Positions 20,046 through 35,992 of a stretch of DNA of 60,965 bases are shown here, piece after piece. A program made the position numbers and the translations under genes. Source of the DNA: Candidatus Egerieousia equi (lineage in GTDB: Bacteria; Bacteroidota; Bacteroidia; Bacteroidales; UBA932); contig JAGHUC010000020.1 in the NCBI GenBank assembly GCA_018065035.1, positions 1 through 60,965 on the forward strand, read 5' to 3'. Below the pieces are notes generated by a model. The model worked only from the letters and a program-made list of their open reading frames with translations. It was not told the origin of the DNA and made no database searches. How positions within the stretch are numbered: position 1 is the first letter of the stretch; every line of letters starts with the position of its first letter.

Positions 20046-20939
20046 ATGCCAAAGGATCTGAGTGACAGAGCATGGTCAGGGAAGACTGGAGGATTTGAAT
20101 GGCAACAGAGATTCCTTATCAGTTTCTTCAAACGAATAAATCCTGCAATTACATACCCTTTCATCTGGATCTGGGTGCTGGCATACATATTCTTTCGCCC
20201 GAAAACCAGGAAAGGCATTCTTCATTACTGGCAGCTGCAAGGCAGATCAGGCTTTTCGGCCTGGCTGAACATGTATTTGAATTATGTGGAATTCGGCAAG
20301 GCAATCATGGACCGTTTTGCCGCTTATGGAGGCAGGGAGATACAGATAGATTTTGAAGGGATAGAGATTTTTGACAAACTGCAATCATCGGAATCAGGCT
20401 TCATTCTTTTCAACAGCCACATAGGTAATCCCGAGCTGGCAGGCTATCATCTTATGCCGCAAAAGCCAATGTTTGTACTCTCTTTTGACGGAGACACACA
20501 AACTGTTAACAAAAGCAGAAGTGCCTCCCTGCAGAAAATGGGAATAGATGTCATTACCCTCAAACAGGACGGAAGCCACATCATTGAAATGCACAACGCC
20601 ATATCAAACGGCTCAATACTTTCCATTCATGCAGACAGACTGTTTGCGGCGGACAGGAAAATCAGAGCATCCCTTCTGAACCACGAAGCATCATTCCCTG
20701 CGGGTCCTTTCAGATTCGCAGCCAGCGAAATGGTCCCTGTTGTATGCTTGTTCATGATAAGGACAGGAAACGACAAATATCAACTGAGCGTAAGGAACCT
20801 GTCGGATGGTGTTGACTGGAAAGCAGGCAGGAAAGAGGTCTGCATTCAATTGCTCGCCCGATATAAAACTGCAATGGAAGAAACTCTTCAACGCTTTCCT
20901 CGTCAATGGTTCCATTTCTATGATTTCTGGGAACTGTAA
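20046..20939 (+). CDS. LpxL/HtrB-like lipid acyltransferase
   Basis: This 297-residue protein has one hydrophobic segment (about residues 36-50) and a lysophospholipid-acyltransferase-type core. The catalytic motif appears as HIGNPE (His125, Glu130), an Hx4E variant of the usual Hx4D, followed by a long basic tail. Such LpxL-like enzymes are regular members of aryl-polyene and flexirubin clusters, where they may attach the polyene to a lipid. It precedes the ketosynthase operon and is separated from it by a strong promoter. Confidence 0.8.
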   Translation: MPKDLSDRAWSGKTGGFEWQQRFLISFFKRINPAITYPFIWIWVLAYIFFRPKTRKGILHYWQLQGRSGFSAWLNMYLNYVEFGKAIMDRFAAYGGREIQIDFEGIEIFDKLQSSESGFILFNSHIGNPELAGYHLMPQKPMFVLSFDGDTQTVNKSRSASLQKMGIDVITLKQDGSHIIEMHNAISNGSILSIHADRLFAADRKIRASLLNHEASFPAGPFRFAASEMVPVVCLFMIRTGNDKYQLSVRNLSDGVDWKAGRKEVCIQLLARYKTAMEETLQRFPRQWFHFYDFWEL

Positions 20940-20954
20940 AGGCCGGGGCTCGCA

Positions 20955-20985
20955 TTGCAATCGTCCTATAATTTCATTATATTTG
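20955..20985 (+). promoter_or_regulatory. Promoter of the polyene-type operon
   Basis: TTG (20955-20957) and TATATTTG (20978-20985) are separated by exactly 20 bases, a near-perfect Bacteroidetes promoter, 17 bases before the first ketosynthase ATG. Confidence 0.7.
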
Positions 20986-21002
20986 CTGAATAATCAAATA
21001 CA

Positions 21003-22223
21003 ATGACAAGACGGGTTGTAATAAGCGGAATGGGTATTTATTCCTGTATTGGTGAAAACAGGACACAGGTTCTGGACTCCCTCTTCAACGGGAGGTCCGG
21101 AATAGGCACGGACCCTGAGAGAAAAGAATTCGGTTACAGATCGTCACTTGTAGGAATACTGAGAAAGCCCGAACTCAAGAGTCTTCTCACAAGACACCAG
21201 AGGCTTTACCTGCCTGAAGAAGGGCAATATGCCTATATGGCCAGCCGTGAAGCGCTGGAACAGGCACTGATTGATGCCGATTACCTTAAAGAACATGAAA
21301 CAGGAATAATATATGGGAATGACAGCAGTGCCAGACCCATCATAGAAGGCATTGATATTGCAAGAACCCAAAAAAGCACTGCAATGGTTGGATCCGGAAA
21401 CGTTTTCCAGGTCATGAATTCAACCATTACAATGAATCTTTCAACCATATTCAATCTAAGAGGAATCAATTTCACTATATCGAGTGCATGTTCAAGCGGA
21501 ACTAACAGCGTTGGAATGGCGTACCTGTTGATCAAGAACGGTTATCAGGAGAGAATAATATGCGGAGGAGCCGAGGAAGTGAACCTATACTCCGCAATAA
21601 GTTTTGATGCCATAAACGCTTTCTCCACCAGAGAGAATGAACCCCAGAAAGCATCAAGGCCATTTGACAGGAACAGGGACGGTCTTGTTCCAAGCGGCGG
21701 TGCCGCAACACTTGTCCTTGAAACATACGAATCTGCGCTGAAGCGTGGTGCTCCCATACTTGCGGAAATAATCGGATATGGATTTTCATCCGACGGGAAC
21801 ATAATCTACTCCCCTAACGTTGACGGGCCGGCGCAATCCATAATGAACGCCATCAAGGATGCCGGTTTGAACCCGGGTGACATTGAATATATAAATGCAC
21901 ACGCAACCTCAACACAGGCAGGTGATGCCATTGAAGCCAAGGCCATACACAGAGTCTTCTCGGATTCCAAGCCATACGTAAGTTCAACAAAGTCACAGAC
22001 AGGCCACGAAATGTGGATGTCTGGTGCAAGTGAGATCATATATTCCACCTTGATGATGCACAATGGTTTCATAGCGCCGAACCTGAACTTTGAAGAACCA
22101 GATGAGGATTCCGCCGGATTGAATATCTCAGGCAGCAGGGTGGACCGAAAATTCAAATGTTTCCTGAGCAATTCATTCGGATTCGGTGGCACCAACGCAA
22201 GCATAGTGATAAAGGAAATTTAA
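21003..22223 (+). CDS. Beta-ketoacyl-ACP synthase (KAS II type)
   Basis: The 406-residue thiolase-fold enzyme condenses malonyl-ACP with an acyl chain. The triad is visible: the nucleophile Cys163 in SSACSSGTNS, the first His in YINAHATSTQAGD and the second in SQTGHEMWMSGAS. The end FGFGGTNASIVIKEI is typical. All residues are present, so it is likely active. It is the first gene after the cluster's main promoter and probably one of the chain-building synthases of the aryl-polyene-like pathway. Confidence 0.92.
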   Translation: MTRRVVISGMGIYSCIGENRTQVLDSLFNGRSGIGTDPERKEFGYRSSLVGILRKPELKSLLTRHQRLYLPEEGQYAYMASREALEQALIDADYLKEHETGIIYGNDSSARPIIEGIDIARTQKSTAMVGSGNVFQVMNSTITMNLSTIFNLRGINFTISSACSSGTNSVGMAYLLIKNGYQERIICGGAEEVNLYSAISFDAINAFSTRENEPQKASRPFDRNRDGLVPSGGAATLVLETYESALKRGAPILAEIIGYGFSSDGNIIYSPNVDGPAQSIMNAIKDAGLNPGDIEYINAHATSTQAGDAIEAKAIHRVFSDSKPYVSSTKSQTGHEMWMSGASEIIYSTLMMHNGFIAPNLNFEEPDEDSAGLNISGSRVDRKFKCFLSNSFGFGGTNASIVIKEI

Positions 22224-22241
22224 CCATAACATCATAAAATC

Positions 22242-22856
22242 ATGAAGCATTCCAGAAAGACAAGACTCCTTACGGTTTTCGCATTGTTTCTATCTCTGAT
22301 ATTCTGCAACAACGCCTCAGCGCAGAATCTCAAAGTCGGACAGATAAAGTCCTTCGCGGATGGAACCAGAGGAATAATATTTTACGTTGACAAGAACGGA
22401 CATGGTCTGGTTGTTTCAATGATGCAGGCTGAACTGCCCTGGATCAGGAATTCAAAAGGCAAAGTATCAGTGAATCCAATTACTGATGAAGACAAGCTGA
22501 TTGTTGGAATCTCCGAAAAAAAGGCCAGCGGAATGGAAGGCACAAAGAAAATCGTGAAAGCGCTTGGTTCTGATATGGCAGTTGCCGCCCAGTGGTGTCT
22601 TGATCTGGGTGAAGGCTGGTATCTGCCAAGTGCAAGCGAACTGAACTACCTTATTGTAACAGCAAATGAAGAGGGCAAGAAAACAGGTCCTATAAGTCTT
22701 GCCTTGATGGAAGCGGGCTACAAGCCTATCAAAGGCTGGTACTGGTGCTGTGAGGATTACAGTGCACGTCAAGCGTGGAATATTGCCAGCGGCGGAGGCA
22801 TAGCCTCAGAATCCAAAACGTCCAAAGCAATGGTCAGGGCAGTCAGGAAATTCTAA
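22242..22856 (+). CDS. Secreted DUF1566-like protein within the polyene cluster
   Basis: The 204-residue product has a signal peptide (about 1-27, ending NNASAQ). The mature part, with GIIFYVDKNGHGLVVSM, WCLDLGEGWYLPSASEL, WYWCCEDYSARQAWNI and a final AMVRAVRKF, resembles the DUF1566 / Fibrobacter-type domain of extracellular proteins. Function is unknown. It sits between the first ketosynthase and the first carrier protein with gaps of 18 and 10 bases, so it is in the operon although it is not a standard cluster member. Confidence 0.65.
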   Translation: MKHSRKTRLLTVFALFLSLIFCNNASAQNLKVGQIKSFADGTRGIIFYVDKNGHGLVVSMMQAELPWIRNSKGKVSVNPITDEDKLIVGISEKKASGMEGTKKIVKALGSDMAVAAQWCLDLGEGWYLPSASELNYLIVTANEEGKKTGPISLALMEAGYKPIKGWYWCCEDYSARQAWNIASGGGIASESKTSKAMVRAVRKF

Positions 22857-22866
22857 ATTTCAGGCT

Positions 22867-23118
22867 ATGACAATAGAAGAAATACAGGAAATAGCCAGAA
22901 AAGTTCTGGCAGAAGAATTTGAAGTTGAGGAGCAGACCATAATACCGGATGCCTCTATCAGGGAGACTCTCAATCTTGACAGCCTTGATATGGTTGACAT
23001 TGTGGTTCTTGCAGACAAATATTTCAATGTCAAGATCACAGCCAAGGAGCTGGAAGTGATGAACACGTTCAATGATTTCTACTTAATGCTGCTGCAAAGG
23101 CAGAATCAGAGACAATAG
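22867..23118 (+). CDS. Acyl carrier protein 1 of the polyene cluster
   Basis: The 83-residue acidic four-helix protein has the phosphopantetheine site LNLDSLDMVD, with Ser39 as attachment point. It would hold the growing chain or the starter. It is followed one base later by the methyltransferase, consistent with translational coupling. Confidence 0.9.
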   Translation: MTIEEIQEIARKVLAEEFEVEEQTIIPDASIRETLNLDSLDMVDIVVLADKYFNVKITAKELEVMNTFNDFYLMLLQRQNQRQ

Positions 23119-23119
23119 G

Positions 23120-24214
23120 ATGAGACTTAGCCCCGAATTGCTGAAAGTTTACTCGAACGAAAGCAGAACCGCCGCACAGGCTCAACGTGCTGCGCAGGAA
23201 ATTGCATTCGCTCCTGTAGTTTTCCAGGTTTCCAGAATCATGATGAAATCCGGTCTGCTGGAATTCATCCGCAACAGTGAGAACGGAGCTGACATTGAAG
23301 AAATAAAAGGGAACTTCAATTTTTCAGACTATGCCATAAAATGCCTGCTGGAAGCATCGCTTTCAATAGGCACTGTAAAGATTGAAGGAGAAAGATTCAA
23401 GCTTACGAAAACAGGCTGGTTCCTGCTGGAGGATGAGAGCATACGCTCCAACATGGATTTCAACCATGACGTGAATTATCTTGGCATGTTCCATCTTGAA
23501 GAATCTCTCATAAATGGCAAGCCGGAAGGCCTGAAGGTTTTTGGCGAATGGCCTACCATATATGAAGGGCTTTCATCGCTCCCTCCTCAAGTTCAGAAGA
23601 GCTGGTTCGGCTTTGATCATCTGTACTCCGACAAGGCCTTCAAGAATGCGCTGGAAACTATATTTTCCAGGCCATCGCAGGTGGAAAAAATACTTGATGT
23701 GGGAGGGAACACCGGCAGATGGGCTCTGGAATGCGTGAAATTCAACAGGGAGGTTGAGGTTACCGTCATGGACCTTCCTCAGCAGATTGAGATGATGAGG
23801 GATAATGTTGCGGGAAAGGACGGCGCAGAGAGAATTCATGGATACGCCTGCAATCTCCTTGACAAGGATGCCCGCTTCCCGTCCGAGCACTTTGACATAA
23901 TATGGATGAGCCAGTTCCTTGATTGCTTTTCTCCCAAGCAGATCTCAGATATATGCTCGCGTGCAGCTCTTTCCATGGACGATGCGTGCAGGCTGTACAT
24001 TATGGAACCATTCTGGGACAGGCAGAAATATGAAACCTCGGCATACTGTCTCACCCTCACAAGCCCGTATTTCACAGCGATGGCGAACGGCAACAGCAAG
24101 ATGTATCATTCAGAAGAATTCAAAGGCTTCATTGAAAATTCAGGCCTGATAGTGGAAAAAATCGTAGATGGTCTCGGACTAGGCCATTCAATAATGATTT
24201 GCAGAAAGAAATGA
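23120..24214 (+). CDS. SAM-dependent O-methyltransferase
   Basis: The 364-residue protein has an N-terminal winged-helix dimerisation domain (about residues 20-100) and a class I methyltransferase domain with the SAM loop ILDVGGNTGRWALE near residue 192 and a C-terminal HSIMICRKK strand. This is the layout of acetylserotonin/hydroxyneurosporene O-methyltransferases. In aryl-polyene clusters a methyltransferase decorates the aryl head group, the likely task here. Its stop overlaps the dehydratase start as ATGA. Confidence 0.85.
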   Translation: MRLSPELLKVYSNESRTAAQAQRAAQEIAFAPVVFQVSRIMMKSGLLEFIRNSENGADIEEIKGNFNFSDYAIKCLLEASLSIGTVKIEGERFKLTKTGWFLLEDESIRSNMDFNHDVNYLGMFHLEESLINGKPEGLKVFGEWPTIYEGLSSLPPQVQKSWFGFDHLYSDKAFKNALETIFSRPSQVEKILDVGGNTGRWALECVKFNREVEVTVMDLPQQIEMMRDNVAGKDGAERIHGYACNLLDKDARFPSEHFDIIWMSQFLDCFSPKQISDICSRAALSMDDACRLYIMEPFWDRQKYETSAYCLTLTSPYFTAMANGNSKMYHSEEFKGFIENSGLIVEKIVDGLGLGHSIMICRKK

Positions 24215-24621
24215 CAGACATCATTGATCACATACCGCAAAAGAAGCCTATACTCCTGGTTGACGGATTTCTAGGCATATCTGATGATGGCATTTCCAGG
24301 ACCCGCCTCACAATTGAAGCCAGCAATATCTTTCTCGATGGACGTAAGTTCTCTGCATGCGGTATGATCGAGCATATGGCACAATCCGCGGCGGCAAGGA
24401 AATCCTGGATGAACAGACTGGAGGGCAAGCCCGACAAAGAAGGCTACATAGGTTCCATAAGCGGATTCGAAATGATTTCTGATGTCTGCTTGAATGACAC
24501 TGTTGAAACTGAGTTGGAAATATTGCAGGAGCTGGGCAATATGTCAATGGTTGAAGCCAGGTCCTTTGTAAACGGAGTTCTTGTTGCCAAGGGAAGGCTG
24601 GGTATTGTCATTGCAGAATAA
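24211..24621 (+). CDS. ApeP-type 3-hydroxyacyl-ACP dehydratase
   Basis: The 136-residue hotdog-fold protein starts around DHIPQKKPILLVDGF and carries SACGMIEHMAQSAAA, the helix segment with the likely catalytic Glu. The GHFP box of FabZ is missing, as in the ApeP branch of dehydratases from aryl-polyene clusters. It would make the double bonds of the polyene. ATG 24211 overlaps the methyltransferase stop; a TTG at 24199 is less likely. It is the only dehydratase seen in the cluster. Confidence 0.8.
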   Translation: MTDIIDHIPQKKPILLVDGFLGISDDGISRTRLTIEASNIFLDGRKFSACGMIEHMAQSAAARKSWMNRLEGKPDKEGYIGSISGFEMISDVCLNDTVETELEILQELGNMSMVEARSFVNGVLVAKGRLGIVIAE

Positions 24622-24634
24622 ATAATGGTCACGA

Positions 24635-26284
24635 GTGGAATCAAGAAAAGTTTACATAGGCGGATACTCAATAATCAGTGCTCTTGGCAGCACAGGTTCC
24701 ACCATATCGGCGCTTGAGGAAGGGCGTAGCGGTTTACGCAAGGAGCATAACTCTGACGTATGCGCCAGAGTGGATGATTCGCAGTTCATTGCCACGCAGC
24801 ACAGATCCCGCTTTGACAAGCTCCTTTCATCATGCATGCACAATCTGCTGGATGAATGCAAGCTGCCAGCCGGCACAAGATTCATCCTTGCCAGCACAAA
24901 AGGGGCCGTTGACCTGATTGCAGGAAGCAATTTCCCACCCGAAGCATTTCTGTGCTCAAGTGCGGAAAGAATATGCCGGGATTACAATCTTGCACCTGAA
25001 CCGCTTATCATTTCAAATGCGTGCATTTCAGGACTTTCAGCCCTAATAACTGCAAAAAGGATGATTGAATGCGGACAATGCAGCCACATTGTGGTTGCCG
25101 GCTGCGACATTCTTTCTGATTTCGTTCTGGAAGGATTCAAATCGCTTCAGTCGGTCAGTTCAAGCAACTGCAGGCCCTACGATATTGAGCGTAACGGACT
25201 CAACCTGGGCGAAGCCTGCGCAGCTATATTTCTCACCTGCAGCAGTGGGGCTGCCATCAAACCTTTGATAAGCATTGAAGGAGGAGCCATAAGCAATGAT
25301 GCCTATCACATTTCAAGTCCTTCCAGGACTGGCGACGGGCTGGCGCAGGCCATTGATGATGCCATAGAGGATGCGGGCATTGACAAGGATGAGATTGACC
25401 TGATAAACGCACATGGAACAGCCACGATTTTCAACGATGAAATGGAAAGCCGGGCATTCGCGCTGGCCGGCCTTTCACAGAAACCCACAAACAGTCTGAA
25501 ACCATATTTCGGGCACACACTGGGCGCATCAGGAATTCTTGAAACGGCCATCTGCGTGCATTCGCTGCAGAATGACATAATCCTTGCCACACCCGGCTTC
25601 AGTCTGCAGGGCACAAGCCGCAAGCTGAACATAGTCACGGAGAATATTTCCAGAAAGCTGCAATGCTGCCTTAAGACCGCCTCCGGTTTTGGCGGATGCA
25701 ATGCTGCCATTGTTCTATGCAAGGAATCCAGGCACATGAAGACCAGCAAGGTCAATCATGAAATACATACTGCAGCGGAATGCACAATGGTTCATGAAGG
25801 GCCTGATTTCAAGGAGTTCATAAAAAAAGAATACCAGAAGCTCGGTGAAACGAATCTGAAATTCCACCAGATGAGCGCTCTTTGCCAGGCTGCATACGTG
25901 GCAGCCGGCAAACTGCTTTCAACGGATGTTCTCGAAGGCATTGATTCAAAAGATACAGCCATTGTTCTTGCCAACAGCACGTCCACAATGGAAACGGACA
26001 TGGAGCACCAGTTGAACATTGAAAGCGGAGAAACAAACAGAATATCCCCAGCCGTCTTTGTTTACACACTTCCCAACATTGCCATTGGCCAATTATGCAT
26101 CAAATACGGCATAAAAGGCGACAACAGCTTTTTCTTACGCGAAAAAAATGACAATTTTGCAGAAGATTATTCAAGGATGCTCATTGAGCAAGGCTATGCA
26201 AAGGCCGTCATTTGCGGATGGTGCAACAAGGCCGGAGAAGAATTGAACGTCAATCTCAAACTTTTGAAAAGAAAAACTGAATGA
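24635..26284 (+). CDS. Ketosynthase fused to a second ketosynthase-like domain
   Basis: The 549-residue protein starts at GTG (VESRKVYIGGYSII). Residues 1 to about 375 form a KAS domain with Cys130 in SNACISGLSA, His in INAHGTATIFND and His in YFGHTLGASG, so it should be active. Residues about 385-549 form a partial second domain (SALCQAAYVAAGKLL, DTAIVLANSTSTMETD, SPAVFVYTLPNIAIGQLCIKYGIKG) that looks like the N-terminal half of the ketoacyl-synt_2 family and has no catalytic Cys. The fused part may act as a chain-length or docking partner; this is inference. One spare base separates it from the next carrier protein gene. Confidence 0.85.
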   Translation: MESRKVYIGGYSIISALGSTGSTISALEEGRSGLRKEHNSDVCARVDDSQFIATQHRSRFDKLLSSCMHNLLDECKLPAGTRFILASTKGAVDLIAGSNFPPEAFLCSSAERICRDYNLAPEPLIISNACISGLSALITAKRMIECGQCSHIVVAGCDILSDFVLEGFKSLQSVSSSNCRPYDIERNGLNLGEACAAIFLTCSSGAAIKPLISIEGGAISNDAYHISSPSRTGDGLAQAIDDAIEDAGIDKDEIDLINAHGTATIFNDEMESRAFALAGLSQKPTNSLKPYFGHTLGASGILETAICVHSLQNDIILATPGFSLQGTSRKLNIVTENISRKLQCCLKTASGFGGCNAAIVLCKESRHMKTSKVNHEIHTAAECTMVHEGPDFKEFIKKEYQKLGETNLKFHQMSALCQAAYVAAGKLLSTDVLEGIDSKDTAIVLANSTSTMETDMEHQLNIESGETNRISPAVFVYTLPNIAIGQLCIKYGIKGDNSFFLREKNDNFAEDYSRMLIEQGYAKAVICGWCNKAGEELNVNLKLLKRKTE

Positions 26285-26285
26285 T

Positions 26286-26543
26286 ATGGAAGAACTGATA
26301 CTTGAATTCAAGAAGCACCTGATTGAGGAACTCAACCTTGAGGACCTTAATCCTGAAAATATAGACAATGACGCTCCTCTTTTCGGGGAAGGCCTTGGTC
26401 TTGACTCCATCGATGCACTTGAGATCCTGCTTATACTTGAGAGGAAGTACGGAATAAAGCTGCGCAATTCCGCCGATGCGAAAGCAATATTCAAATCAGT
26501 AAGGACAATTGCCGAATACATCAGGGACAACAGACAGAAATAA
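26286..26543 (+). CDS. Acyl carrier protein 2 of the polyene cluster
   Basis: The 85-residue acidic protein has GEGLGLDSIDALEILL with Ser41 as the phosphopantetheine site. It is distinct from the carrier encoded at 22.9 kb. Its stop overlaps the next ketosynthase start (TAATG), so carrier and synthase are probably made in step. Confidence 0.9.
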   Translation: MEELILEFKKHLIEELNLEDLNPENIDNDAPLFGEGLGLDSIDALEILLILERKYGIKLRNSADAKAIFKSVRTIAEYIRDNRQK

Positions 26544-27721
26544 TGCGGATAGCCATAAGCGGCATAGGGATTATCAGTGCATTGGGCGCCGGTGCTTCAA
26601 GAACCATTGAGGCTCTCTCAGCCGCCCGCTCAGGCATATCTTCATCCACAGCGATAGTCAGTTCACATCTTGAACTACCTGCCGGGGAGATTCCCCTTAC
26701 AAATGAGCAGCTGGCATTGAAGCTTGGAATTGACGGGAAGCGAATCATTTCAAGGACAGCCCTGCTAGGAGCTATTGCGGCCAGCGAGGCGCTTGATAAT
26801 GCACGATGCGGAAAGGACAGAAGAATTGCACTCATCTCAGGCACCAGCATTGGAGGAATGGATCTGACCGAACTGTTCGAGAAAGATTCGGGCAAGGGCC
26901 CATTTTCCAGACTCAGATATGTAAGGATGCACGATTGTGCATCAAGCACGCGATTCATAGCGGATCATTGCGGAATCACCGGCTACACAAGCACTATTAG
27001 CACAGCCTGCTCCTCTGCAATGAATGCCATAATTGCAGGCGCACGCCTCATCAGGCACAATATAGCGGACACTGTCATTGCCGGAGGAACTGATGCCTTG
27101 AGTCTTTTCACCTTGAACGGCTTCAACTCTCTTGGAATACTTGATTGCAATGTTTGCAGGCCTTTTGACAGGAACAGGAATGGATTGAACCTAGGTGAAG
27201 CGGCGGCATATCTTGTTCTCCAAAGGGAGGATGTTCTTGATTCAGACCCGTACTGCTATCTGGAAGGCTGGGGAAACGCCAACGACGCTTACCATCAGAC
27301 TGCTTCATCACCGAACGGCGATGGTGCATACATGGCCATGAAGAAGGCATTGGAAACATCGGGGCTGGAAACCGGGCGGATTGATGCAATCATTGCACAC
27401 GGAACAGGCACCCCGAACAACGACGCCGCTGAAACACAGGCTTTTGTCAACTTGTTCGGAAGCAACATACCACCTTTCATTTCAACCAAGGCATACACTG
27501 GACATACGCTGGCCGCATCAGGAAGTCTTAATGCCGTCATAGCCTGCCTTTGCATCAAGCATGGTTTCCTTCCTGCTTCGCTGAATTTCAACAATCCAAT
27601 GGACGAAGGCCTTCCGGTTCCACAAAGCACCTTCAACAATAAAATACGGATCAGGAATATGCTGACCAATGCTTTCGGATTCGGAGGCAATTGTTCATCA
27701 ATAATACTCTCTGCGCAATGA
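26543..27721 (+). CDS. Beta-ketoacyl-ACP synthase
   Basis: The 392-residue KAS has Cys156 in ISTACSSAMNAI, His in IIAHGTGTPNND and His in AYTGHTLAASG, followed by FGFGGNCSSIIL. It is full length and likely active. Its stop overlaps the start of the chain-length-factor-like protein (ATGA), the usual arrangement of KS/CLF pairs, so the two may form a heterodimer. Confidence 0.92.
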   Translation: MRIAISGIGIISALGAGASRTIEALSAARSGISSSTAIVSSHLELPAGEIPLTNEQLALKLGIDGKRIISRTALLGAIAASEALDNARCGKDRRIALISGTSIGGMDLTELFEKDSGKGPFSRLRYVRMHDCASSTRFIADHCGITGYTSTISTACSSAMNAIIAGARLIRHNIADTVIAGGTDALSLFTLNGFNSLGILDCNVCRPFDRNRNGLNLGEAAAYLVLQREDVLDSDPYCYLEGWGNANDAYHQTASSPNGDGAYMAMKKALETSGLETGRIDAIIAHGTGTPNNDAAETQAFVNLFGSNIPPFISTKAYTGHTLAASGSLNAVIACLCIKHGFLPASLNFNNPMDEGLPVPQSTFNNKIRIRNMLTNAFGFGGNCSSIILSAQ

Positions 27722-28521: not shown

Positions 28522-29168
28522 CAATTATCATAGTGCCTGTTCTTGCCCTGCTTTCATATTTCGTATGGGCATCCGCTTGTATAGGAAGCGGACGATATGT
28601 CAGATGTATATGCAGATTCAATGAATCCGAACGTATTTTCCTGAGTTTTGACGACGGCCCCCACCCTGAACGCACTTCGCAGATTCTCGACATACTTGCA
28701 CAGCACCATATACAGGCAACATTCTTCCTTATCGGGGCCAATGCACAGAAACATCAGGAAATCGTAAGGAGGATAGCACGCGAGGGGCACAATATAGGCA
28801 ACCACAGTTACACGCACAGCGGATTCCTGCCGCTGAAACGTTCCAGCAGGCTCATAGAGGAAATTGATGCAACCAGCAACTTGCTTGAAACCATTACCGG
28901 CAGACCTGTCGAATGGTACCGCCCACCTTTCGGCGTCACCAATCCAATGACAGGAAAAGCCCTTCGCTGCACAGGGCTGAAAGCTATTGGCTGGAGCATA
29001 CGCACCTTTGACACAGTTTCTCTGATTCCAAGGAAATGGATAGCAAGGTCGGTGGAGAGGCAGTTGAAACCGGGTGCAATAATTCTGCTTCACGACCGTT
29101 GCAGGGATTCGGATATTCTTCTGGAAATGATAATAAAGAAAATCAAGGACAAAGGCTGGTCGATTTAG
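28512..29168 (+). CDS. Polysaccharide deacetylase (NodB domain) protein
   Basis: The 218-residue protein has an N-terminal membrane helix (about residues 2-18) and a NodB-type CE4 domain with FLSFDDGPHP, the metal motif NIGNHSYTH, WYRPPFG and the late IILLHD. These keep the Asp-Asp, His and Arg residues of active deacetylases. It overlaps the preceding gene by 10 bases. Deacetylases of this type occur in some Bacteroidetes polyene clusters, perhaps acting on a glycan- or lipid-linked head group; the target is unknown. Confidence 0.88.
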   Translation: MYLTIIIVPVLALLSYFVWASACIGSGRYVRCICRFNESERIFLSFDDGPHPERTSQILDILAQHHIQATFFLIGANAQKHQEIVRRIAREGHNIGNHSYTHSGFLPLKRSSRLIEEIDATSNLLETITGRPVEWYRPPFGVTNPMTGKALRCTGLKAIGWSIRTFDTVSLIPRKWIARSVERQLKPGAIILLHDRCRDSDILLEMIIKKIKDKGWSI

Positions 29169-29195
29169 AAGCAAATTTATTATTTTTGCCATATT

Positions 29196-29813
29196 ATGAG
29201 AGCACATTCAAACAAAACATATCTTGTATATTTCTTCATTGTTCTTCTGTGTATGCTTTTCAGTTCAGATGCAAATGCTCAGGACGAACTTCCGGACTTC
29301 ATAAAAAGGCTCAAGCTTGAAATAGTGTCAGTCAACACTATCACGAGTGAAGTAGGCATGCAGCAATATGTATCCTCCCTTTCAAAAGTCTGCTCCAATA
29401 AAGGGAATTTCAGATATGAAAGGCCGGACATGATTCGGCTGGACTTTGAAAATGGAGATTATATAAGAATGAGTTCAGACAAGTTCACAATGAAAAACGG
29501 TGGCCGTGTAAGCTGCCTGAAACCTGCCTCCACTCCTGTAATCAAGGAAATGAGTCTGCTGTTCAATGCTTGCATGAGCGGAGATTTCGAGCAGCTCACT
29601 TCATTCTTCCATATGGATTATAATGCGAATCTCACTGAATGCATACTTGTGCTCAAGCCGCTTGACAAGAAATCCAACAGATACATAAAGGACATTACCA
29701 TTGAATTCAACAGACAGGACCTTACGATAAATACCATACATATAAACGACAATTCCGGTGACTGGTCCGAATACCGCTTCTTTAACAAGCATCTGATAAA
29801 TGCAGGGAACTGA
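29196..29813 (+). CDS. LolA-like outer-membrane lipid carrier
   Basis: The 205-residue protein has a signal peptide (about 1-28, ending DANAQ) and an all-beta body like LolA/LolB-type carriers (FRYERPDMIRLDFENGDYIRM, KNGGRVSCLKPA, DITIEFNRQDLTINTIHI). LolA homologues are regular members of aryl-polyene clusters and would carry the product across the periplasm. A TATTTTTG box at 29181-29188 just before the start could give a very short leader. The end overlaps the next gene by 14 bases. Confidence 0.8.
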   Translation: MRAHSNKTYLVYFFIVLLCMLFSSDANAQDELPDFIKRLKLEIVSVNTITSEVGMQQYVSSLSKVCSNKGNFRYERPDMIRLDFENGDYIRMSSDKFTMKNGGRVSCLKPASTPVIKEMSLLFNACMSGDFEQLTSFFHMDYNANLTECILVLKPLDKKSNRYIKDITIEFNRQDLTINTIHINDNSGDWSEYRFFNKHLINAGN

Positions 29814-30990
29814 TTATAGGGCACGTATCACCGGCTTGAAATGCGCGGTGGCCATCCCCACATATAACAATGCCGGGACCATTGCAGGCGTGATTGAGGC
29901 TGTCAGGCTATTCTTTCCATTCATCATTGTTGTAAACGACGGCTCAACGGATGCCACAGCGGACATTCTCTCAGGCATTGAAGGCATCAACGTTGTAACC
30001 CATCCTGTTAACAGAGGAAAGGGAGCCGCCATCAAGTCCGCAATCGCAGCCGCTTCCAATGCCGGAATGAATTACCTGATAAGCATTGATTCAGATGGCC
30101 AGCACAGTGCCCGCAACATTCCGTCATTCATCGAGGCCATTGAGAACAATCCCGATTGCTTCATCATTGGTGCCAGGAATCTCAGAAGCGCGAACATGCC
30201 CGGAAAGAACACTTTCGCCAACAAGTTCTCCAATTTCTGGTTCAAGATTGAAACCGGCATAAGTCTGTCAGACACCCAATGTGGCTTCAGGGCATATCCC
30301 TTGAACAGATTGAAAGGTATGAAATTCCTTACGAACGGGTATGAGTTCGAAGTGGAATCCATAGTAAGGGCCGCCTGGAAAGGCATAGGAGTAATGAACA
30401 TTCCCATCGATGTGAAATACGAGCCCGCTGGAAAGAGAGTTTCACATTTCAAGCCTTTCAGAGATTTTACAAGAATAAGCATTCTGAATGCGGTTCTCAC
30501 TATCTGCGCCCTCATATATTTCTATCCCAAGCGGCTCATTCAACGCTGCATGAGAGCTGATTTGAAGGAAACAATGAAGGTCCACGTTCTTGGCAGCAGG
30601 GACAGCAATCTGAAAATGTCTGCATCCATTGCCGTTGGCATATTCTGCAGCATAATTCCTGTTTGGGGGTATCAGCTTGTTACCGCAGTGGCAATAGCCT
30701 GGCTTCTGAAACTGAACAAAGTTGTTGCCGGCATCTTCTCAGCCGCCAGCATTCCGCCTGCAATCCCGTTCATAGTATATGGCTGCGTTCTTGTTGGTGC
30801 GGCAGTTACAGGGGAGCCGTTGCCTGAATCCGTTGCCAGCATCAGGCTTGAAAACATAGGCAGCGGTATATTGCAGTATATCATTGGAAGTTTCATTGTG
30901 GCATCGGCCGCCGCATTGCTGGCTTTCGGAATTTCATACTGTCTGATGTATGTTTGTAAAAGGAACCCTGGAGGGTCACAAGATATCTGA
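29800..30990 (+). CDS. GT2 glycosyltransferase fused to DUF2062
   Basis: The 396-residue protein has a GT2 domain (residues about 14-245) with VAIPTYNNAGTI, VVNDGSTDAT, SIDSDGQHSA and the QCGFRAYP acceptor site. A C-terminal membrane DUF2062 domain follows (about 260-390) with IAVGIFCSIIPVWGYQ and SIPPAIPFIVYG. This fusion is typical of Bacteroidetes polyene/flexirubin clusters and suggests glycosylation of a lipid at the inner membrane. It is followed five bases later by the exporter. Confidence 0.88.
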   Translation: MQGTDYRARITGLKCAVAIPTYNNAGTIAGVIEAVRLFFPFIIVVNDGSTDATADILSGIEGINVVTHPVNRGKGAAIKSAIAAASNAGMNYLISIDSDGQHSARNIPSFIEAIENNPDCFIIGARNLRSANMPGKNTFANKFSNFWFKIETGISLSDTQCGFRAYPLNRLKGMKFLTNGYEFEVESIVRAAWKGIGVMNIPIDVKYEPAGKRVSHFKPFRDFTRISILNAVLTICALIYFYPKRLIQRCMRADLKETMKVHVLGSRDSNLKMSASIAVGIFCSIIPVWGYQLVTAVAIAWLLKLNKVVAGIFSAASIPPAIPFIVYGCVLVGAAVTGEPLPESVASIRLENIGSGILQYIIGSFIVASAAALLAFGISYCLMYVCKRNPGGSQDI

Positions 30991-30995
30991 TTCAG

Positions 30996-33900
30996 ATGAC
31001 AGAAGCGCTCCTGAAAATATACGACTGGGTTGAAAGGCATAAGAAAATCTTTTATGCTTCTTTGTGCATTTTGATTTGCATAATGGGCATAATGGCCGTC
31101 AATGTAGATTACGAGGAGGACATATCCAGATTCTTCGGCAAGGACAAGGATGATTCTTCCATCCTGAAGAGTATGAAACTCTCCGACAAAATAGTGATAG
31201 CCATCCAGGCTGGAAGTCCTGATGCCATGATTGAAGCAGGTGAACGCTTTGCAGACAGCATCAGCGGCGTTGAAGGTCTCTCACCGGAAATTGAACGCGG
31301 TTTTGACGAAGAATCGGTTTTCAGAAACATAGATTTCATTTACAGGCACCTGCCGGTCTTTCTCAATGACAAGGATTTCACAAGGCTTGAAAGGATATTG
31401 AACAGCAGAGACAGCATAGATGCCGCCCTGGAAAGCTGCTATGACCAGCTCTGTTCATTTTCAGGAATGGTGCTCAAGGATTTCATTACAAAAGATCCTT
31501 TTGGAACAGGAAGCGGAATGCTTGGCCGGCTCAATGCCCTGAACACAGACAATGGATTCGAAATTTACGATTCCCACATTTTCACAAAGGATATGGGAAT
31601 GATGCTCATGTTCGCATCGTCTGAATATGGCATAGGGCAGACCGGTGACAACGCAAGGCTTTTGAAGACTCTTGAGGAAAAGGCGGAGGCGGTGGGAACG
31701 CAGATAAGTTTCCTCGGAGCTCCGGTGGTTGCCGTCCGCAATGCAGAAAAGATCAAGGCTGACACCGGGATTACTGCAACCATCGCCATGTTGGTGATAA
31801 TAATTGTGATTTTCTTCTCCTTCAGCAGCAGGAAGTCCATTCCTCTGATTGTACTTCCTCCCGCATTCGGCGCACTTTTCGCGCTGGCGGTCATCTATCT
31901 TGTCAAGGGAAGCATTTCCGCCATTGCCATCGGAGCGGGAACTGTTGTAATGGGAATTGCCATGAGTTACTCCATTCACGTGATAGCCCATAGCAATCAC
32001 CGGACCGACCCCCGCAGGATTATCAGGGAGCTGGCATATCCGCTTACCATTGGAAGCCTCACCACCATAGGAGCCTTCTTTGCCCTGCTTTTCACAAAGT
32101 CCGCACTGCTTCAGGACATGGGACTCTTTGCTTTCCTGTCCCTGATTGGAACAACCTTATGCTGTCTGACCATACTTCCGCACTTCATAAAGGCCAGTCA
32201 CGCGGATTCCAGACCATGGCTGAGATTCATTCAGCGAATGAATTCCTACTCTTTTGAAAGAAACCGCACGCTTCTGATTCTGATAGCCGCACTCACTGTG
32301 GCATGCCTGTTCTTCTACAACGATGTTGAGTTCGACAATGACATGTCGCACATAAACTATATTCCACCGGAGATAGCGCAGCTTGAAGAAAAGATTGCCA
32401 GGACAGAAGACTCCGGGAAGGAGGATATCTTCCTCATAGCAGGCGGAAAAAACCTTGATGAGGCCTGCAAGGCATATTCTTCACTGGCGATGGTCTCAGA
32501 CAGTCTGACCCAGTCAGGCATTCCGCTTGAACTCAGCGGACCGGGAGACTTTGTAGTACCGCTGGATGAGCAGGCAAGAAGGATACGGAAGTGGAATTCC
32601 TTGTGGGAATCAGAGAACTTCATGAGCACTTTCAATGAACTGGCAAAACGCAGAGGCTTCAGCGAACATGCTTTTGACAGTTTCAAGGAATTGATTTCGG
32701 CGCATTATGAACCTGTAGCCTATACCGCTTCCGAGCTTGAGGAGGCGCCGCTGATTTCAGAGTTCGTGAGTGTGACCGCGGAAGGGGTCTCCATTGTATC
32801 AATGCTGCACACAGGCCAGGCCAACAAGGAAAAGGCATATGATGTATTGGATGACATTCCTGGCGCATCCATCATTGACAGAACTTTCTTCTCAAAGAAA
32901 ATGATTGATGTGATCAGAAGCGATTTCGACTTCATTCTCTGGGTTTCCTCAATAATCGTTTTCATTGCGCTTCTATGCTCCTACAGGAACATTGAAATAA
33001 CACTCCTCACCTTCCTGCCCATGTGTGTGAGCTGGGTGATCATTCTAGGAATAATGGCCGTATCCGGAATCAGGTTCAACATTGTGAACATAATCCTGGC
33101 AACCTTCATATTCGGCATAGGAGATGATTTCAGCATCTTTGTAATGGACGGTCTGCTAAGTGAACATAACAATGGAGAGAAACTTCTCAACAGCCATAAG
33201 ACAGCTATCTTCTTCTCAGCCTTCACAGTGATAGTTGGAATGGGGGCCATGTTCTTTGCCGGTCATCCTTCACTGAAGTCCATTGCATTCATTTCTGTCC
33301 TTGGCATAAGCGTTGTGGTTCTGGTGGCCTTCACTTTGGAACCGTTCCTGTTCAGGCTCATGATTTCGGGCCCCGCCTCCAAAGGACTCGAACCTGTAAG
33401 AATCAAGAATCTACTGTTTTCACTGTACGCCTTCACAATGTTTGCCATATTCTGTCTGGCAATACATATCCTGCTGCTTTTCATAATCCTGCTGCCATGC
33501 GGCAAGGAAAGCAAAAGGAAAATGCTTCACAAGGCGATTCACAAATCAATAGGACTTTATTTTCTCATAACTGCAAAAAGACGCATATCCATAGAGAATC
33601 TCTGCCATGAAACGTTTGACAAGCCGGCCATAATCATATGCAACCATCAGTCGTTCCTTGACATACTCATTCTGCTTTCAATAAGCCCGAAACTTGTGAT
33701 TGTAACAAAAAGCTGGGTCTGGAATTCACCGGTATTCGGACTTTTCATAAGGTATGCAGGATTCATCCACAGCACTGATGGATTCGATTCAATTCTGGAG
33801 CAAAGCAGGGAAACAATAAGGCAGGGCTGCTCGATAGTCATATTCCCTGAAGGCACCCGTTCCGCAGACGGCAGTACAGGCCGTTTCCATCATGGTGCAT

Positions 33901-34127
33901 TCTCGTTGGCCCAGGAGCTTGATGTTGATATCGTTCTGGCTGTCATCCACGGTGCAGGAAAGATTCTGCCTAAACACAGAAGCTGGCTGATCAACAATGG
34001 CAGGGCAGTATGCAGGATTTGCCGGAGATACAGACGTGGCTCACAGATTCTCGAAACGGAAACCAGGGAGCAGCCGAAACTGTTCAAAAAACTCTGCGAA
34101 GAACAACTTGAATCCTTTAAGAATTAA
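30996..34127 (+). CDS. MMPL-family lipid exporter fused to PlsC acyltransferase
   Basis: The 1043-residue protein has an RND/MMPL exporter part of about 800 residues: a first helix near 18-35, a periplasmic loop, helices around 265-400, a second loop and helices around 640-800 with IFGIGDDFSIFVMDG. The C-terminal 200 residues are a PlsC-type acyltransferase with NHQSFLD (His884, Asp889) and FPEGTRS near residue 950. Joining export and acyl transfer in one chain suggests that the polyene lipid is acylated as it is flipped; this is inference. It ends convergently with the AMP ligase. Confidence 0.9.
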   Translation: MTEALLKIYDWVERHKKIFYASLCILICIMGIMAVNVDYEEDISRFFGKDKDDSSILKSMKLSDKIVIAIQAGSPDAMIEAGERFADSISGVEGLSPEIERGFDEESVFRNIDFIYRHLPVFLNDKDFTRLERILNSRDSIDAALESCYDQLCSFSGMVLKDFITKDPFGTGSGMLGRLNALNTDNGFEIYDSHIFTKDMGMMLMFASSEYGIGQTGDNARLLKTLEEKAEAVGTQISFLGAPVVAVRNAEKIKADTGITATIAMLVIIIVIFFSFSSRKSIPLIVLPPAFGALFALAVIYLVKGSISAIAIGAGTVVMGIAMSYSIHVIAHSNHRTDPRRIIRELAYPLTIGSLTTIGAFFALLFTKSALLQDMGLFAFLSLIGTTLCCLTILPHFIKASHADSRPWLRFIQRMNSYSFERNRTLLILIAALTVACLFFYNDVEFDNDMSHINYIPPEIAQLEEKIARTEDSGKEDIFLIAGGKNLDEACKAYSSLAMVSDSLTQSGIPLELSGPGDFVVPLDEQARRIRKWNSLWESENFMSTFNELAKRRGFSEHAFDSFKELISAHYEPVAYTASELEEAPLISEFVSVTAEGVSIVSMLHTGQANKEKAYDVLDDIPGASIIDRTFFSKKMIDVIRSDFDFILWVSSIIVFIALLCSYRNIEITLLTFLPMCVSWVIILGIMAVSGIRFNIVNIILATFIFGIGDDFSIFVMDGLLSEHNNGEKLLNSHKTAIFFSAFTVIVGMGAMFFAGHPSLKSIAFISVLGISVVVLVAFTLEPFLFRLMISGPASKGLEPVRIKNLLFSLYAFTMFAIFCLAIHILLLFIILLPCGKESKRKMLHKAIHKSIGLYFLITAKRRISIENLCHETFDKPAIIICNHQSFLDILILLSISPKLVIVTKSWVWNSPVFGLFIRYAGFIHSTDGFDSILEQSRETIRQGCSIVIFPEGTRSADGSTGRFHHGAFSLAQELDVDIVLAVIHGAGKILPKHRSWLINNGRAVCRICRRYRRGSQILETETREQPKLFKKLCEEQLESFKN

Positions 34128-35443
34128 ATCTCTTTATAGAAAGTCCTGTTCAGTTTTCCGTTGAAGGTTCTCTCTATTTTATCGACCTGTGCATATTTCA
34201 AAGGAACCTTGTATGGCTCCAGCCTTGTCTTCAGGAATGCGGCCAGCTTTCTTGGAGAGAATTCAAAGCCTTTTTCAACCACAACAAACAGTTTCAAGGC
34301 ACTGCCTGCAATTACATCAGGAACTTCAGTGCAGATGCAGTCAATGATTCCCGGAGCGGAAAGAGCAGCATTCTCTATTTCCACCGGCGATAGTTTGAAA
34401 CCGCCCAGATTTATCAGATCATCCTTGCGGCCTATGATATGAAGCCTGCCCCGGGAATCGCAACGCCCGAGATCGGCGGTATGGATCTCATTGCCGGACA
34501 TTACCGAAGCGCTGAGTTCATCATCACCGAAGTAGCCGCTCATCATAGTCTTTCCAAAGCAGGAAATGGTTGAATCATCACAGATTCTGAAGCCGGAGTT
34601 CTTCATTCGCGTTCCAAGGCAGGAGGCAATGCATTCACCGGCATTGTAATTGAAAGTGCTTATTATTCCGGTTTCAGTTGATGCGTATGTGTTATACAGC
34701 CTTGTGTGTGGAAGAATGCGGCACAGTTCTTCCATATCCGATTGATACATTGGTGCTGCACCTGTTTCAACGAACTCCAGTTTGTCTGCAATTTTCATCA
34801 GGCTTGCGGAACAGAACCTGAGAAGCATTCTTATGCTTGCAGGAACAAGAAAAGTGGCGAATCTGTCATACGGCAGTTCAAACGTCCTGAAGAATGCATC
34901 CATATCCTTCAGCCCCTCAAGAATGCACAGAGTGGCCCCCTGCATTATTACAGGATAAACTTTTGAAAGAGAACCTATGTGATTGAGCGGGCCGCAGATT
35001 ACAAAGGCAAGATTATGTGAGAATCCTTGAGATTCAACCAGATTCTCTCCATTTGCAACAATGGCACCATGGCTTATCATTACACCCTTTGGCTTTCCCG
35101 TTGTGCCTGTTGTAAAAAGAATATCCGCAATCTCCGATCCAGGGATGGAACGGGTGGAAAGGAATGAAGACAGCTCTTCATATCTCTCAGAAGGCATATC
35201 CTTCTCCAGAGGAGCCGCAACCGCTCCGGCCAGATGAGTTGCGAAATACTCTACAAGAAAGTCTATTGATTGTGAAGTCCTGAAAGGAACAACATGATTT
35301 CTGAATTGCCGTAATTCTTCCGCCCGCCTTACAACACGTGCCAGTAATTCACTGTAGCTAACTGATTCCCCGCTGCAGATGATTGCAGTCCTGTCCGGAA
35401 AAAGCTCGGCATCCTTGAACAGATATTCCTCAATACGGTTCAT
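34124..35443 (-). CDS. AMP-dependent acyl/aryl ligase
   Basis: The 439-residue ANL enzyme activates a carboxylic acid with ATP and would load it on a carrier protein. The P-loop LFTTGTTGKPKGVMISHG, YNTYASTETGIIS, the DLGRCDSRGRLHIIGRKDDLINLGG hinge and the C-terminal Lys in NGKLNRTFYKEI are present. It is short for the family. ATG 35443 is preferred, one base after the carrier protein stop; an alternative lies at 35458. In aryl-polyene clusters such a ligase activates the aryl starter. Confidence 0.87.
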   Translation of the reverse strand: MNRIEEYLFKDAELFPDRTAIICSGESVSYSELLARVVRRAEELRQFRNHVVPFRTSQSIDFLVEYFATHLAGAVAAPLEKDMPSERYEELSSFLSTRSIPGSEIADILFTTGTTGKPKGVMISHGAIVANGENLVESQGFSHNLAFVICGPLNHIGSLSKVYPVIMQGATLCILEGLKDMDAFFRTFELPYDRFATFLVPASIRMLLRFCSASLMKIADKLEFVETGAAPMYQSDMEELCRILPHTRLYNTYASTETGIISTFNYNAGECIASCLGTRMKNSGFRICDDSTISCFGKTMMSGYFGDDELSASVMSGNEIHTADLGRCDSRGRLHIIGRKDDLINLGGFKLSPVEIENAALSAPGIIDCICTEVPDVIAGSALKLFVVVEKGFEFSPRKLAAFLKTRLEPYKVPLKYAQVDKIERTFNGKLNRTFYKEI

Positions 35444-35444
35444 T

Positions 35445-35669
35445 TCACTTGTTGGCAAGCTTGGATTGAACCATTGAAACTATGCTGTCAAGATTCTTCA
35501 GATTGCGTGGAGTTGCATCCTGGGAATCCAACTCTATGCCGTACTCATTGGAAAGCACCATCAGTATGGAGGTTATTCCAAGAGAATCCAGTTCGGCAAA
35601 AAGGAAATCGGAGTCCAGGTCAACGATTGGAAGCACTCCTTCCAGTAAAGTTCTTATATGTTCTTTCAT
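35445..35669 (-). CDS. Acyl carrier protein 3 of the polyene cluster
   Basis: The 74-residue acidic protein has the site AELDSLGITS with Ser29 as the phosphopantetheine attachment point. It lies directly before the AMP ligase on the minus strand, so it is likely the ligase's partner that receives the starter acid. Its start overlaps the Dabb stop (ATGA). Confidence 0.88.
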   Translation of the reverse strand: MKEHIRTLLEGVLPIVDLDSDFLFAELDSLGITSILMVLSNEYGIELDSQDATPRNLKNLDSIVSMVQSKLANK

Positions 35670-35971
35670 ATTTCAAAATCCAGACAGGCGCGTGCTGCAG
35701 TGAAAGGACGTACCTTCCCGTTTGCAACGGCAAGATGAGCGGGATGAGTTGCATAAATCTTGAGTGCCTCCTCGTTCTCCAGTGTGCAGTCAAGCATAAG
35801 GTCCGCATTGGAACTTGCTATGCGGCCGCTTGCGTTGACTTTAATATCAATCAGTCCCGGAACCTTTCCCTTGAGTCCCTCAAGTCCTTCCTTGATTTCC
35901 TTCTTTACCTGTTCCTTCTCATTCTCAGGAAGTTCGCTCTTGAGCGTCCAGAGTATAATATGCTTTACCAT
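35666..35971 (-). CDS. Dabb (stress-responsive A/B barrel) protein
   Basis: The 101-residue protein starts MVKHIILWTLKSEL and has the dimeric alpha/beta barrel pattern of Dabb proteins, including YATHPAHLAVANGKVRPF. Related folds include polyketide cyclases and small detoxifying enzymes. Being translationally coupled to a carrier protein and a ligase, it might act on the polyene precursor. ATG 35971 is chosen over an upstream ATG 12 bases away because it starts the conserved strand. Confidence 0.82.
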   Translation of the reverse strand: MVKHIILWTLKSELPENEKEQVKKEIKEGLEGLKGKVPGLIDIKVNASGRIASSNADLMLDCTLENEEALKIYATHPAHLAVANGKVRPFTAARACLDFEI

Positions 35972-35992
35972 AGTCACACACATTTATTTTCA

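Follow-up and report, generated by a model that had tools for sequence, protein, structure and literature searches.

A reduced and partly relocated member of the FlxJ/aryl-polyene cluster family in Candidatus Egerieousia equi

What can a polyene-type gene cluster make when the genes for its starter, its reductions and part of its dehydration are missing from the operon? The question is raised by a run of genes on a stretch of Candidatus Egerieousia equi DNA, here called the window, which is the entire contig C27 (60,965 bases) of an assembly of 1.92 Mb in 150 contigs that is 95.7% complete. An earlier note on this DNA had described a tight cluster of 16 genes at 20046..35971 that resembles aryl polyene (APE) or flexirubin clusters and lacks several canonical parts. 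The cluster and the activities named for it stand: ketosynthases (KS), three acyl carrier proteins (ACP), a dehydratase, a methyltransferase, a ligase, a LolA carrier, a glycosyltransferase and an exporter-acyltransferase are all present, in 17 genes rather than 16, the last of which ends at 35983. We conclude that the cluster is genuine and intact, and that it belongs to the Bacteroidales FlxJ/aryl-polyene cluster family as a reduced member with some of its parts relocated. The reading we favour, and consider reasonably likely, is an aryl-polyene-type pathway distributed over at least three loci, in which the lyase starter module has been swapped for an acid-loading ligase with a dedicated ACP.

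An intact cluster of the FlxJ family

The family assignment rests on the methyltransferase and on one ketosynthase pair. The methyltransferase (MT, 23120..24214; plus strand, as are all coordinates in the cluster unless stated) scores 570.6 bits against the FlxJ model NF053543, over the cut-off of 560. The ApeO-like ketosynthase KS_O (26543..27721) has 9s5h_B, 6qsp_A and 7f28_B as its top three PDB matches, and for the ApeC-like chain length factor (CLF) CLF_C (27691..28521; Ketoacyl-synt_2, PF13723) the sole PDB match under 0.01 is 7f28_A (E=0.0011). We take 6qsp and 7f28 to be the APE KS-CLF pairs of Xenorhabdus and Acinetobacter, and by these matches KS_O:CLF_C look like an APE pair of the ApeO:ApeC type. 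Both results bear out the earlier description of the cluster as aryl-polyene/flexirubin-like.

A second ketosynthase, KS_549 (24635..26284), carries at its C-terminus a fused half thiolase fold similar to KS/CLF. No Pfam family matched its C-terminal 185 residues, whose model (mean pLDDT 68) led Foldseek to KS and CLF chains of type II polyketide synthases (6kxf_B and 6smo_G; E about 2-3e-5, TMq 0.5-0.6, root-mean-square deviation 7-8 Å, or 6-9 Å over the KS and CLF chains matched), and at profile level its resemblance to CLF_C was weak (probability 27.6%, E=6.5e-4). Judged from the model, KS_549 appears to combine a KS with a fused CLF-like half. Some relatives have a pair of open reading frames that match it, as if split. 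The third, the FabB/FabF-like (ApeR-like) ketosynthase KS_R (21003..22223), has its Cys-His-His triad and no PDB match at 1e-90.

Fourteen of the genes at 20046-35983 lie on the plus strand and three on the minus strand. All 17 reading frames are open without internal stops, neighbours mostly overlap or almost touch, and the widest intergenic gap is 63 bases, the second widest 27. Since 20 and 25 kb separate the cluster from the contig ends, it is uncut. The plus-strand order is a lipid A acyltransferase-like gene (LPLAT), KS_R, an Lcl-like gene, ACP1, MT, the hotdog protein DH_P, KS_549, ACP2, KS_O, CLF_C, deacetylase, LolA-like carrier, GT2-DUF2062 and MMPL-acyltransferase; on the minus strand a Dabb-domain gene, ACP3 and the ligase gene (LIG) are transcribed in that order. 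The motifs checked for ketosynthases, carrier proteins, ligase P-loop and deacetylase are present across the cluster. One chain-length-factor-like protein accompanies the three ketosynthases, and the carrier proteins ACP1 (22867..23118, LDSL), ACP2 (26286..26543, LDSI) and ACP3 (35445..35669, minus strand, LDSLG; PF00550, 26.2 bits) carry DSL/DSI serine motifs. An ACPS/PPTase-family gene is present in the genome.

An alignment of nine FlxJ proteins, scanned against a species-genome collection, retrieved at least 579 confirmed relatives, of which we kept the best 80. These are 78 Bacteroidota by record and two Neisseria, and they include Phocaeicola vulgatus ATCC 8482, Bacteroides oleiciplenus and B. 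acidifaciens. The closest eight are 63-66% identical to the window MT and come from Alistipes, Rikenellaceae and Bacteroidales records, four of them from ruminants; the habitat label "gut" used here derives from the sources of these nearest relatives. The two Neisseria loci (L199 and L208, from N. dentiae and N. wadsworthii) place a FlxJ-family MT with 59% identity outside Bacteroidota, with no further cluster genes within 10 kb.

The nearest clusters share a common plan. In L145-L150, L173 and L188 the order is TAL-KR-KS_R-ACP1-LPLAT-MT-DH_P-TE-KS_549-ACP2-KS_O-CLF_C-deacetylase-LolA-DH_I-GT2-MMPL, where TAL is an ammonia-lyase, KR a ketoreductase, TE a thioesterase and DH_I an ApeI-type dehydratase; the Bacteroides loci with this order (L173, L188) have an additional LolB-like gene. 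The window has the L145 order minus TAL, KR, TE and DH_I, with the Lcl-like gene added and LPLAT replaced and shifted to the front. Clusters alike in genes and order, L145 (Alistipes sp. metagenome-assembled genome RGIG7479), L173 (B. oleiciplenus), L188 (B. acidifaciens) and L160 (P. vulgatus ATCC 8482), thus differ from the window in keeping those four genes inside the operon. Flanks were counted in those 53 of the 80 loci that extend beyond MT by more than 7 kb upstream and 9 kb downstream. Among them TAL occurs in 22, KR in 39, TE in 35 and DH_I in 32, so single absences are common. In many other loci MT precedes ACP1, and an SMR-like gene takes the place of the deacetylase (deacetylase in 12 of 53). 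Another reduced form of the cluster is found in three Bacteroidaceae loci (L195, L176, L221), which have KS, ACP, GT2-acyltransferase and MMPL genes and in whose fetched stretches KR, DH_P, DH_I and TE were not detected.

Dispersal is also seen closer to home. In ten congeners the 24-40 kb fetched contain FlxJ and no other cluster genes, and in all three of them that were traced further (G004, G020, G026) LIG and the core cluster lie at sites away from the lone FlxJ; a scattered pathway therefore seems common in the genus. The lone FlxJ of these ten (G003, G004, G018, G020, G026, G027, G028, G029, G032, G037; L047/L048, L051-L054, L057-L060, L063-L070, L073/L074) occupies a conserved site with a sodium-symporter-like gene downstream and, in six of the ten, an apparent tripartite-efflux operon upstream, both named by inspection.

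A cluster short of four genes might simply be decaying, the lyase, KR, thioesterase and dehydratase partner having been lost, the polyene no longer made and what is left only weakly constrained. Besides the loss of four pathway genes from the operon, such decay would account for the unusual divergence of DH_P, LPLAT and KS_R, and for the nearest congener showing neither FlxJ nor LIG. We nevertheless consider it rather unlikely: none of the 17 reading frames is broken, the KS triads, ACP serines, ligase P-loop and deacetylase motifs are in place, the tight overlapping operon is retained, the pairing of LIG with ACP3 matches the pattern of relatives, and the 11 other core genes are just 1-10 points below their kin when measured against outgroups.

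Ketoreductase and dehydratase genes outside the cluster

As the earlier note had said, no KR lies inside the cluster (20046-35983), but the genome does not lack one. Among six KR-domain matches in the genome, an orphan KR at C15:21-758, at a contig end and adjoining yidC (PF02096), passes the FlxB model NF053542 with 380.3 bits (cut-off 340). On the same model the genome's FabG, which is over the cut-off of TIGR01830, scores 225 and the in-cluster KR of a congener 410, and FlxB is not among the best 25 models of two other short-chain dehydrogenases/reductases (SDRs) of the genome. The C15 KR is 58-71% identical to KRs in or beside the clusters of seven relatives. G035, the nearest congener, shares this KR (87%) and has a YidC-like gene just one gene away from it, and because this neighbourhood is shared the location on C15 is unlikely to be an assembly accident. 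An SDR in the window itself (49286-50122) was ruled out as the missing KR, its best models being other SDRs. Downstream of its orphan FlxB gene, the nearest congener has (L112:2674-7718) genes of the pyruvate/indolepyruvate oxidoreductase families, a class I/II aminotransferase and PaaK-like AMP ligases, a possible source of arylacetate.

In a tree of 63 KR sequences, the orphans of the window genome and G035 fall in a clade (100/99) with G014, G083, L192 and L206. In the KS_R tree, the KS_R of the window forms a long branch within the half that also contains the nearest TAL-type relatives and a mini-locus described below (100/99); its nearest placement is supported at just 86/59, and G013, G014 and G083 lie apart from it. 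Since the orphan KR and KS_R group with different relatives, the pathway may have been assembled from parts of two ancestries.

The ApeI-type dehydratase, likewise absent from the cluster (20046-35983) as the earlier note had it, is also encoded elsewhere. A search of the genome with a five-protein ApeI-type alignment matched C150:16126-16470 (E=3.2e-28), within a gene at C150:16120-16491 whose product scores 20.2 bits with PF22818 (below the cut-off of 28.5) and 27.8 with PF07977 (over 23). This gene belongs to a seven-gene mini-locus of KS, ACP, DH_P-like, DH_I, MMPL, FAD oxidoreductase and LolA-like genes; the names of the last two rest on similarity and inspection. A FabA/FabZ-like protein on C24 was set aside as an ApeI-type dehydratase: its match to the alignment spans only 23 positions, and its gene adjoins LpxC. 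PMC12141560 makes no mention of ApeI, ApeP or aryl polyene.

Why a second dehydratase matters can be read from the first. DH_P (24199..24621), a FabZ/ApeP-like hotdog protein whose matches to FabZ models fall below cut-off, lacks in alignment the histidine of the GHFP motif and keeps the glutamate; in FabZ these two residues are catalytic. The division recurs among relatives, with the HFP motif in none of 64 DH_P and 43 of 44 DH_I matches, and the glutamate motif in 47 of 64 DH_P and none of 44 DH_I matches. Among 45 core-complete loci, those of the 80 with KS_549, ACP2, KS_O and GT2 in the fetched stretch, 41 have both DH_P and DH_I (in two of them DH_I is fused to GT2), four lack both, and one never occurs in the absence of the other (Fisher 6.7e-6). 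Because the residues complement each other and the two genes co-occur, the window DH_P probably needs a partner from elsewhere, which C150 can supply.

L151 had appeared to be a second cluster without DH_I, but its GT2 bears a fused ApeI-like N-terminus; the longer GT2s of the four loci without DH_P and DH_I are not hidden DH_I fusions, as none of their four N-termini matches DH_I, and in the two scanned, L181 and L195, the extra length is a C-terminal acyltransferase. Fusion of an ApeI-type dehydratase to the N-terminus of GT2 is itself found at L113:4552-5658, L151:16647-18140 and L218:16755-18608.

The mini-locus suggests a different explanation, namely that the cluster, with its own genes alone, makes something other than a reduced aryl polyene, for instance a lipid or glycolipid bearing an acyl chain that is short or not fully reduced, with a second product coming from the mini-locus and orphan KR. 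It does look like a self-contained lipid pathway, kept in two of the four congener regions annotated (G035, with KS at 92% and MMPL at 76%, and G011; G037 and G032 have other arrangements), and that of G011 includes its own FlxB-like KR; the long branch of KS_R would fit as well. Left alone, though, the window DH_P without its catalytic histidine would idle, and KS_O:CLF_C resemble an APE pair. In L212, L219 and L220, moreover, a mini-locus-type KS, the FAD enzyme and a KR lie about 2.4-3.5 kb from the main genes, which suggests joint work. We find two separate products improbable and return to the favoured pathway of several loci, in which the genes on C15 and C150 would serve the cluster on C27.

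Lyase or ligase as the source of the starter

The ammonia-lyase, also reported missing from the cluster by the earlier note, is missing from the assembly as a whole, which has no PF00221 match of any kind; the same search was positive in 5 of 14 known genomes. This absence is not unusual in itself, because 31 of the 53 full-flank loci have no lyase in the fetched stretch and the E. coli APE does without one. In the accessible parts of the literature, the E. coli APE gene table lists no lyase and biosynthesis starts from 4-hydroxybenzoate through ApeH (PMC8253772), which loads it directly onto ACP (PMC8253772, PMC8358021); flexirubin starts with TAL/4CL (PMC3992019), and APE clusters of different genera vary in the start of biosynthesis (PMC8253772).

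The window cluster has an AMP-forming acid ligase of 444 aa (LIG; 34124..35458, minus strand), overlapped by ACP3, the carrier paired with it. The nearest neighbours of LIG among solved structures range across enzymes that activate aryl, malonyl and amino-acid substrates. In relatives ACP3 stands beside LIG in all nine annotated loci (of 20 LIG loci fetched), and a KS_549-like gene is near LIG in five of these nine. LIG occurs in none of the seven nearest named relatives (L145-L151), and its count of 0 in the 53 full-flank loci is little informative, LIG often lying more than 10 kb from MT.

Across 100 genomes, PF00221 matches form one group above 590 bits, which we took as histidine ammonia-lyase, and one below 545 bits, which we call TAL-type; G075, with two partial matches, was counted as neither. 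The eight lyases found within a few kb of FlxJ (G009, G011, G043, G044, G057, G060, G079, G092) are all below 545 bits. LIG relatives are present in 21 of the 100 genomes, the window genome included, and TAL-type lyases in 29, and the two occur together in none (p=3e-4); within the genus, LIG is in 18 and the TAL-type lyase in 8 of 39 genomes, never both (p=0.004), neither value being corrected for kinship. Exactly one of the two is present in 31 of the 33 genomes with FlxJ (matches better than 1e-50; 13 lyase, 18 LIG) and in 19 of the 67 without it. The two exceptions, G033 (78% complete) and G054 (90%, with a partial FlxJ), are each in more than 200 contigs.

The simplest reading of these distributions is that TAL and ACP3-LIG are alternative starter supplies, and that in the window genome the starter is probably not lyase-derived cinnamate or coumarate. 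Among the open-licence papers listed by searches on aryl polyenes and flexirubin, no title or abstract opening dealt with a ligase-for-lyase exchange within a genus. Three genomes with LIG-carrying clusters of the same order (G014, G013, G083) resemble the window in having ACP3-LIG near the cluster and no TAL-type lyase. They differ in that their KS_R is on another branch, and G014 keeps KR, TE and DH_I inside its cluster, where the window genome has them outside it or not found. The Dabb-domain protein (35666..35983, minus strand; PF07876, 67.2 bits) heads the minus-strand operon. The plant olivetolic acid cyclase has the Dabb fold, and we tried the protein as a polyketide cyclase; this stays a mere idea, as the nine other annotated LIG loci have no Dabb match and the sole protein it matches in the PDB is of unknown function.

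The remaining gaps bear on whether the pathway is that of flexirubin proper. No 4HBT thioesterase lies inside the cluster (20046-35983), in line with the earlier note, and DarB, which that note had also listed as lacking, does not reach the cut-off in the genome (NF053539, cut-off 550, top score 20.5 bits), in a search that covered DarB and not DarA and in which no control genome passes either. One could suppose a standard flexirubin pathway, started with coumarate, whose lyase and thioesterase lie in the unassembled part of a genome in 150 contigs that is 95.7% complete. With zero PF00221 matches in the assembly, LIG and TAL-type lyase mutually exclusive in 100 genomes and no DarB over cut-off, we give this explanation very little credence. 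Strictly taken, with neither the lyase nor a DarB over cut-off, this is no flexirubin cluster, but it probably functions in the manner of one from a different starter.

A pathway over several loci and its known counterparts

The suggestion of the earlier note that the product may differ from known aryl polyenes holds for the starter, which may differ from that of flexirubin where the lyase is lacking, and not for the KR and second dehydratase, whose lack is not genuine. That note had reckoned finding the missing genes clustered elsewhere in the genome, as part of a standard APE set, as an outcome that would tell against it; this holds in part, the KR and second dehydratase lying elsewhere and the lyase not being found in the assembly.

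In the mechanism we propose, LIG would adenylate a carboxylic acid, probably aromatic, and load it on its own carrier ACP3. KS_549 and KS_R would carry out the first extensions, and KS_O:CLF_C would complete the chain on ACP1/ACP2. Each beta-keto group would be reduced by the orphan FlxB on C15, a role suggested by its family membership, and water would be removed by a two-part dehydratase that combines the DH_P glutamate with the histidine of the ApeI-type protein on C150, if the two are indeed partners. FlxJ would methylate the head group, and the acyltransferase, GT2, deacetylase, LolA and MMPL proteins would build a polyene lipid and carry it to the outer membrane. Set against the operon of the nearest relatives, that of the window has lost the lyase, KR, thioesterase and ApeI partner, and LIG-ACP3 appears to stand in for the lyase start. 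The predicted product is an aryl-polyene lipid.

Several observations weigh against this proposal. The FlxJ margin is only 10.6 bits, and the LolA-like carrier (29196..29813) scores 100.6 bits with LolA2_flexi (NF053544), below the cut-off of 125. The nearest congener (G035, 78% complete) has the mini-locus and the yidC-linked KR and neither FlxJ nor LIG, so those genes have a life of their own. The KR of the LIG-carrying G013 branches elsewhere in the KR tree, and L212, L219 and L220, outside the 45 core-complete loci for want of GT2, have DH_P without DH_I in the stretch. The window DH_P is unusually diverged, with 39% identity to orthologs against 59% among kin, and is 27% identical to the DH_P of C150. 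This divergence, the replaced LPLAT and the weakly placed long branch of KS_R would be expected under decay too. A thioesterase search of the genome with a five-row alignment gave no match and had no positive control, and the co-occurrence and exclusion counts ignore shared ancestry.

A bolder version is tentative: a polyene pathway free of both lyase and DarB, over at least three loci, whose dedicated ligase-ACP pair loads an acid with a source other than a lyase of the cell itself. An aromatic acid taken from the diet or from neighbouring organisms would be one example, an arylacetate produced by fermenting amino acids another, and the polyene lipid made from it would have a new head group. 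If this is true, the exchange of one starter module for the other, lyase or ligase, would serve gut Bacteroidales as a switch for diversification.

For the favoured pathway, the comparison points to two starter modules that are interchangeable and never together in 100 genomes. This leads to testable predictions of head-group chemistry, and an obligate two-part dehydratase is predicted as well. Genome mining based on clusters would label the window cluster an incomplete or odd aryl-polyene cluster, a caution against inferring chemistry from the gaps of a single contig.

Among the other genes, LPLAT (20046..20939, PF03279) is apparently not an ortholog of the LPLAT in the clusters of the nearest relatives, judging by 27% identity against outgroups where the copies of relatives have 51%. 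The Lcl_C-like gene (22242..22856; below the Pfam cut-off) encodes a secreted-looking protein with no counterpart among the annotated reading frames of relatives. Beyond the cluster, two adjoining minus-strand genes (window:37100-39949) encode closely similar secreted-looking proteins of 476 and 471 aa, by eye apparently a tandem duplication. The export end comprises the polysaccharide deacetylase (28512..29168; FDDG and HSYTH motifs), the LolA-like carrier, the GT2-DUF2062 glycosyltransferase (29800..30990) and the MMPL exporter fused to an acyltransferase (30996..34127). In a congener with the same gene order, G009, a methyltransferase domain follows MMPL-LPLAT at the C-terminus (L043:7830-11669, 1279 aa; the same extension occurs in G079 and G044), whereas the window copy ends before such a domain.

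The earlier note took GT2-DUF2062 and the deacetylase as signs of a glycolipid. That argument falls away, since the same kind of block is part of a flexirubin cluster: flxP-flxU of Chitinophaga pinensis comprise deacetylase, acyltransferase, LolA, glycosyltransferase and exporter, for which a role in export was proposed, in the accessible text of PMC3992019. This block is present in the window cluster and by analogy fits a pigment anchored in the cell envelope no less than a special glycolipid. According to the available portion of PMC12940132, persistent gut strains carry an arylpolyene-type cluster of Bacteroides xylanisolvens whose synteny is flexirubin-like.

Compared as far as that same C. 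pinensis text goes, the flexirubin cluster (flxA-flxY; PMC3992019) and the window share a FlxJ-type MT, FlxB (elsewhere in the window genome), several ketosynthases, an AMP-ligase and the deacetylase, acyltransferase, LolA, glycosyltransferase and exporter. Unlike it, the window has no FlxA-type ammonia-lyase, no in-cluster thioesterase and no DarB over cut-off; its KR and ApeI-type dehydratase are outside the cluster, and its ligase comes with an ACP of its own. The E. coli APE pathway (apeA-apeR), as outlined in the accessible sections of PMC8253772, is contained in one cluster and takes 4-hydroxybenzoate from the chorismate lyase UbiC as starter, whereas the window pathway is spread over several loci and has an MT of the FlxJ family. 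The two share a KS-CLF pair with a FabB-like KS, a KR, LolA, an RND-type exporter, an acyltransferase and a glycosyltransferase, and the dehydratase pair and lyase-free start by an acyl-ACP ligase of E. coli have putative counterparts in DH_P with the C150 protein and in LIG-ACP3 (PMC8253772).

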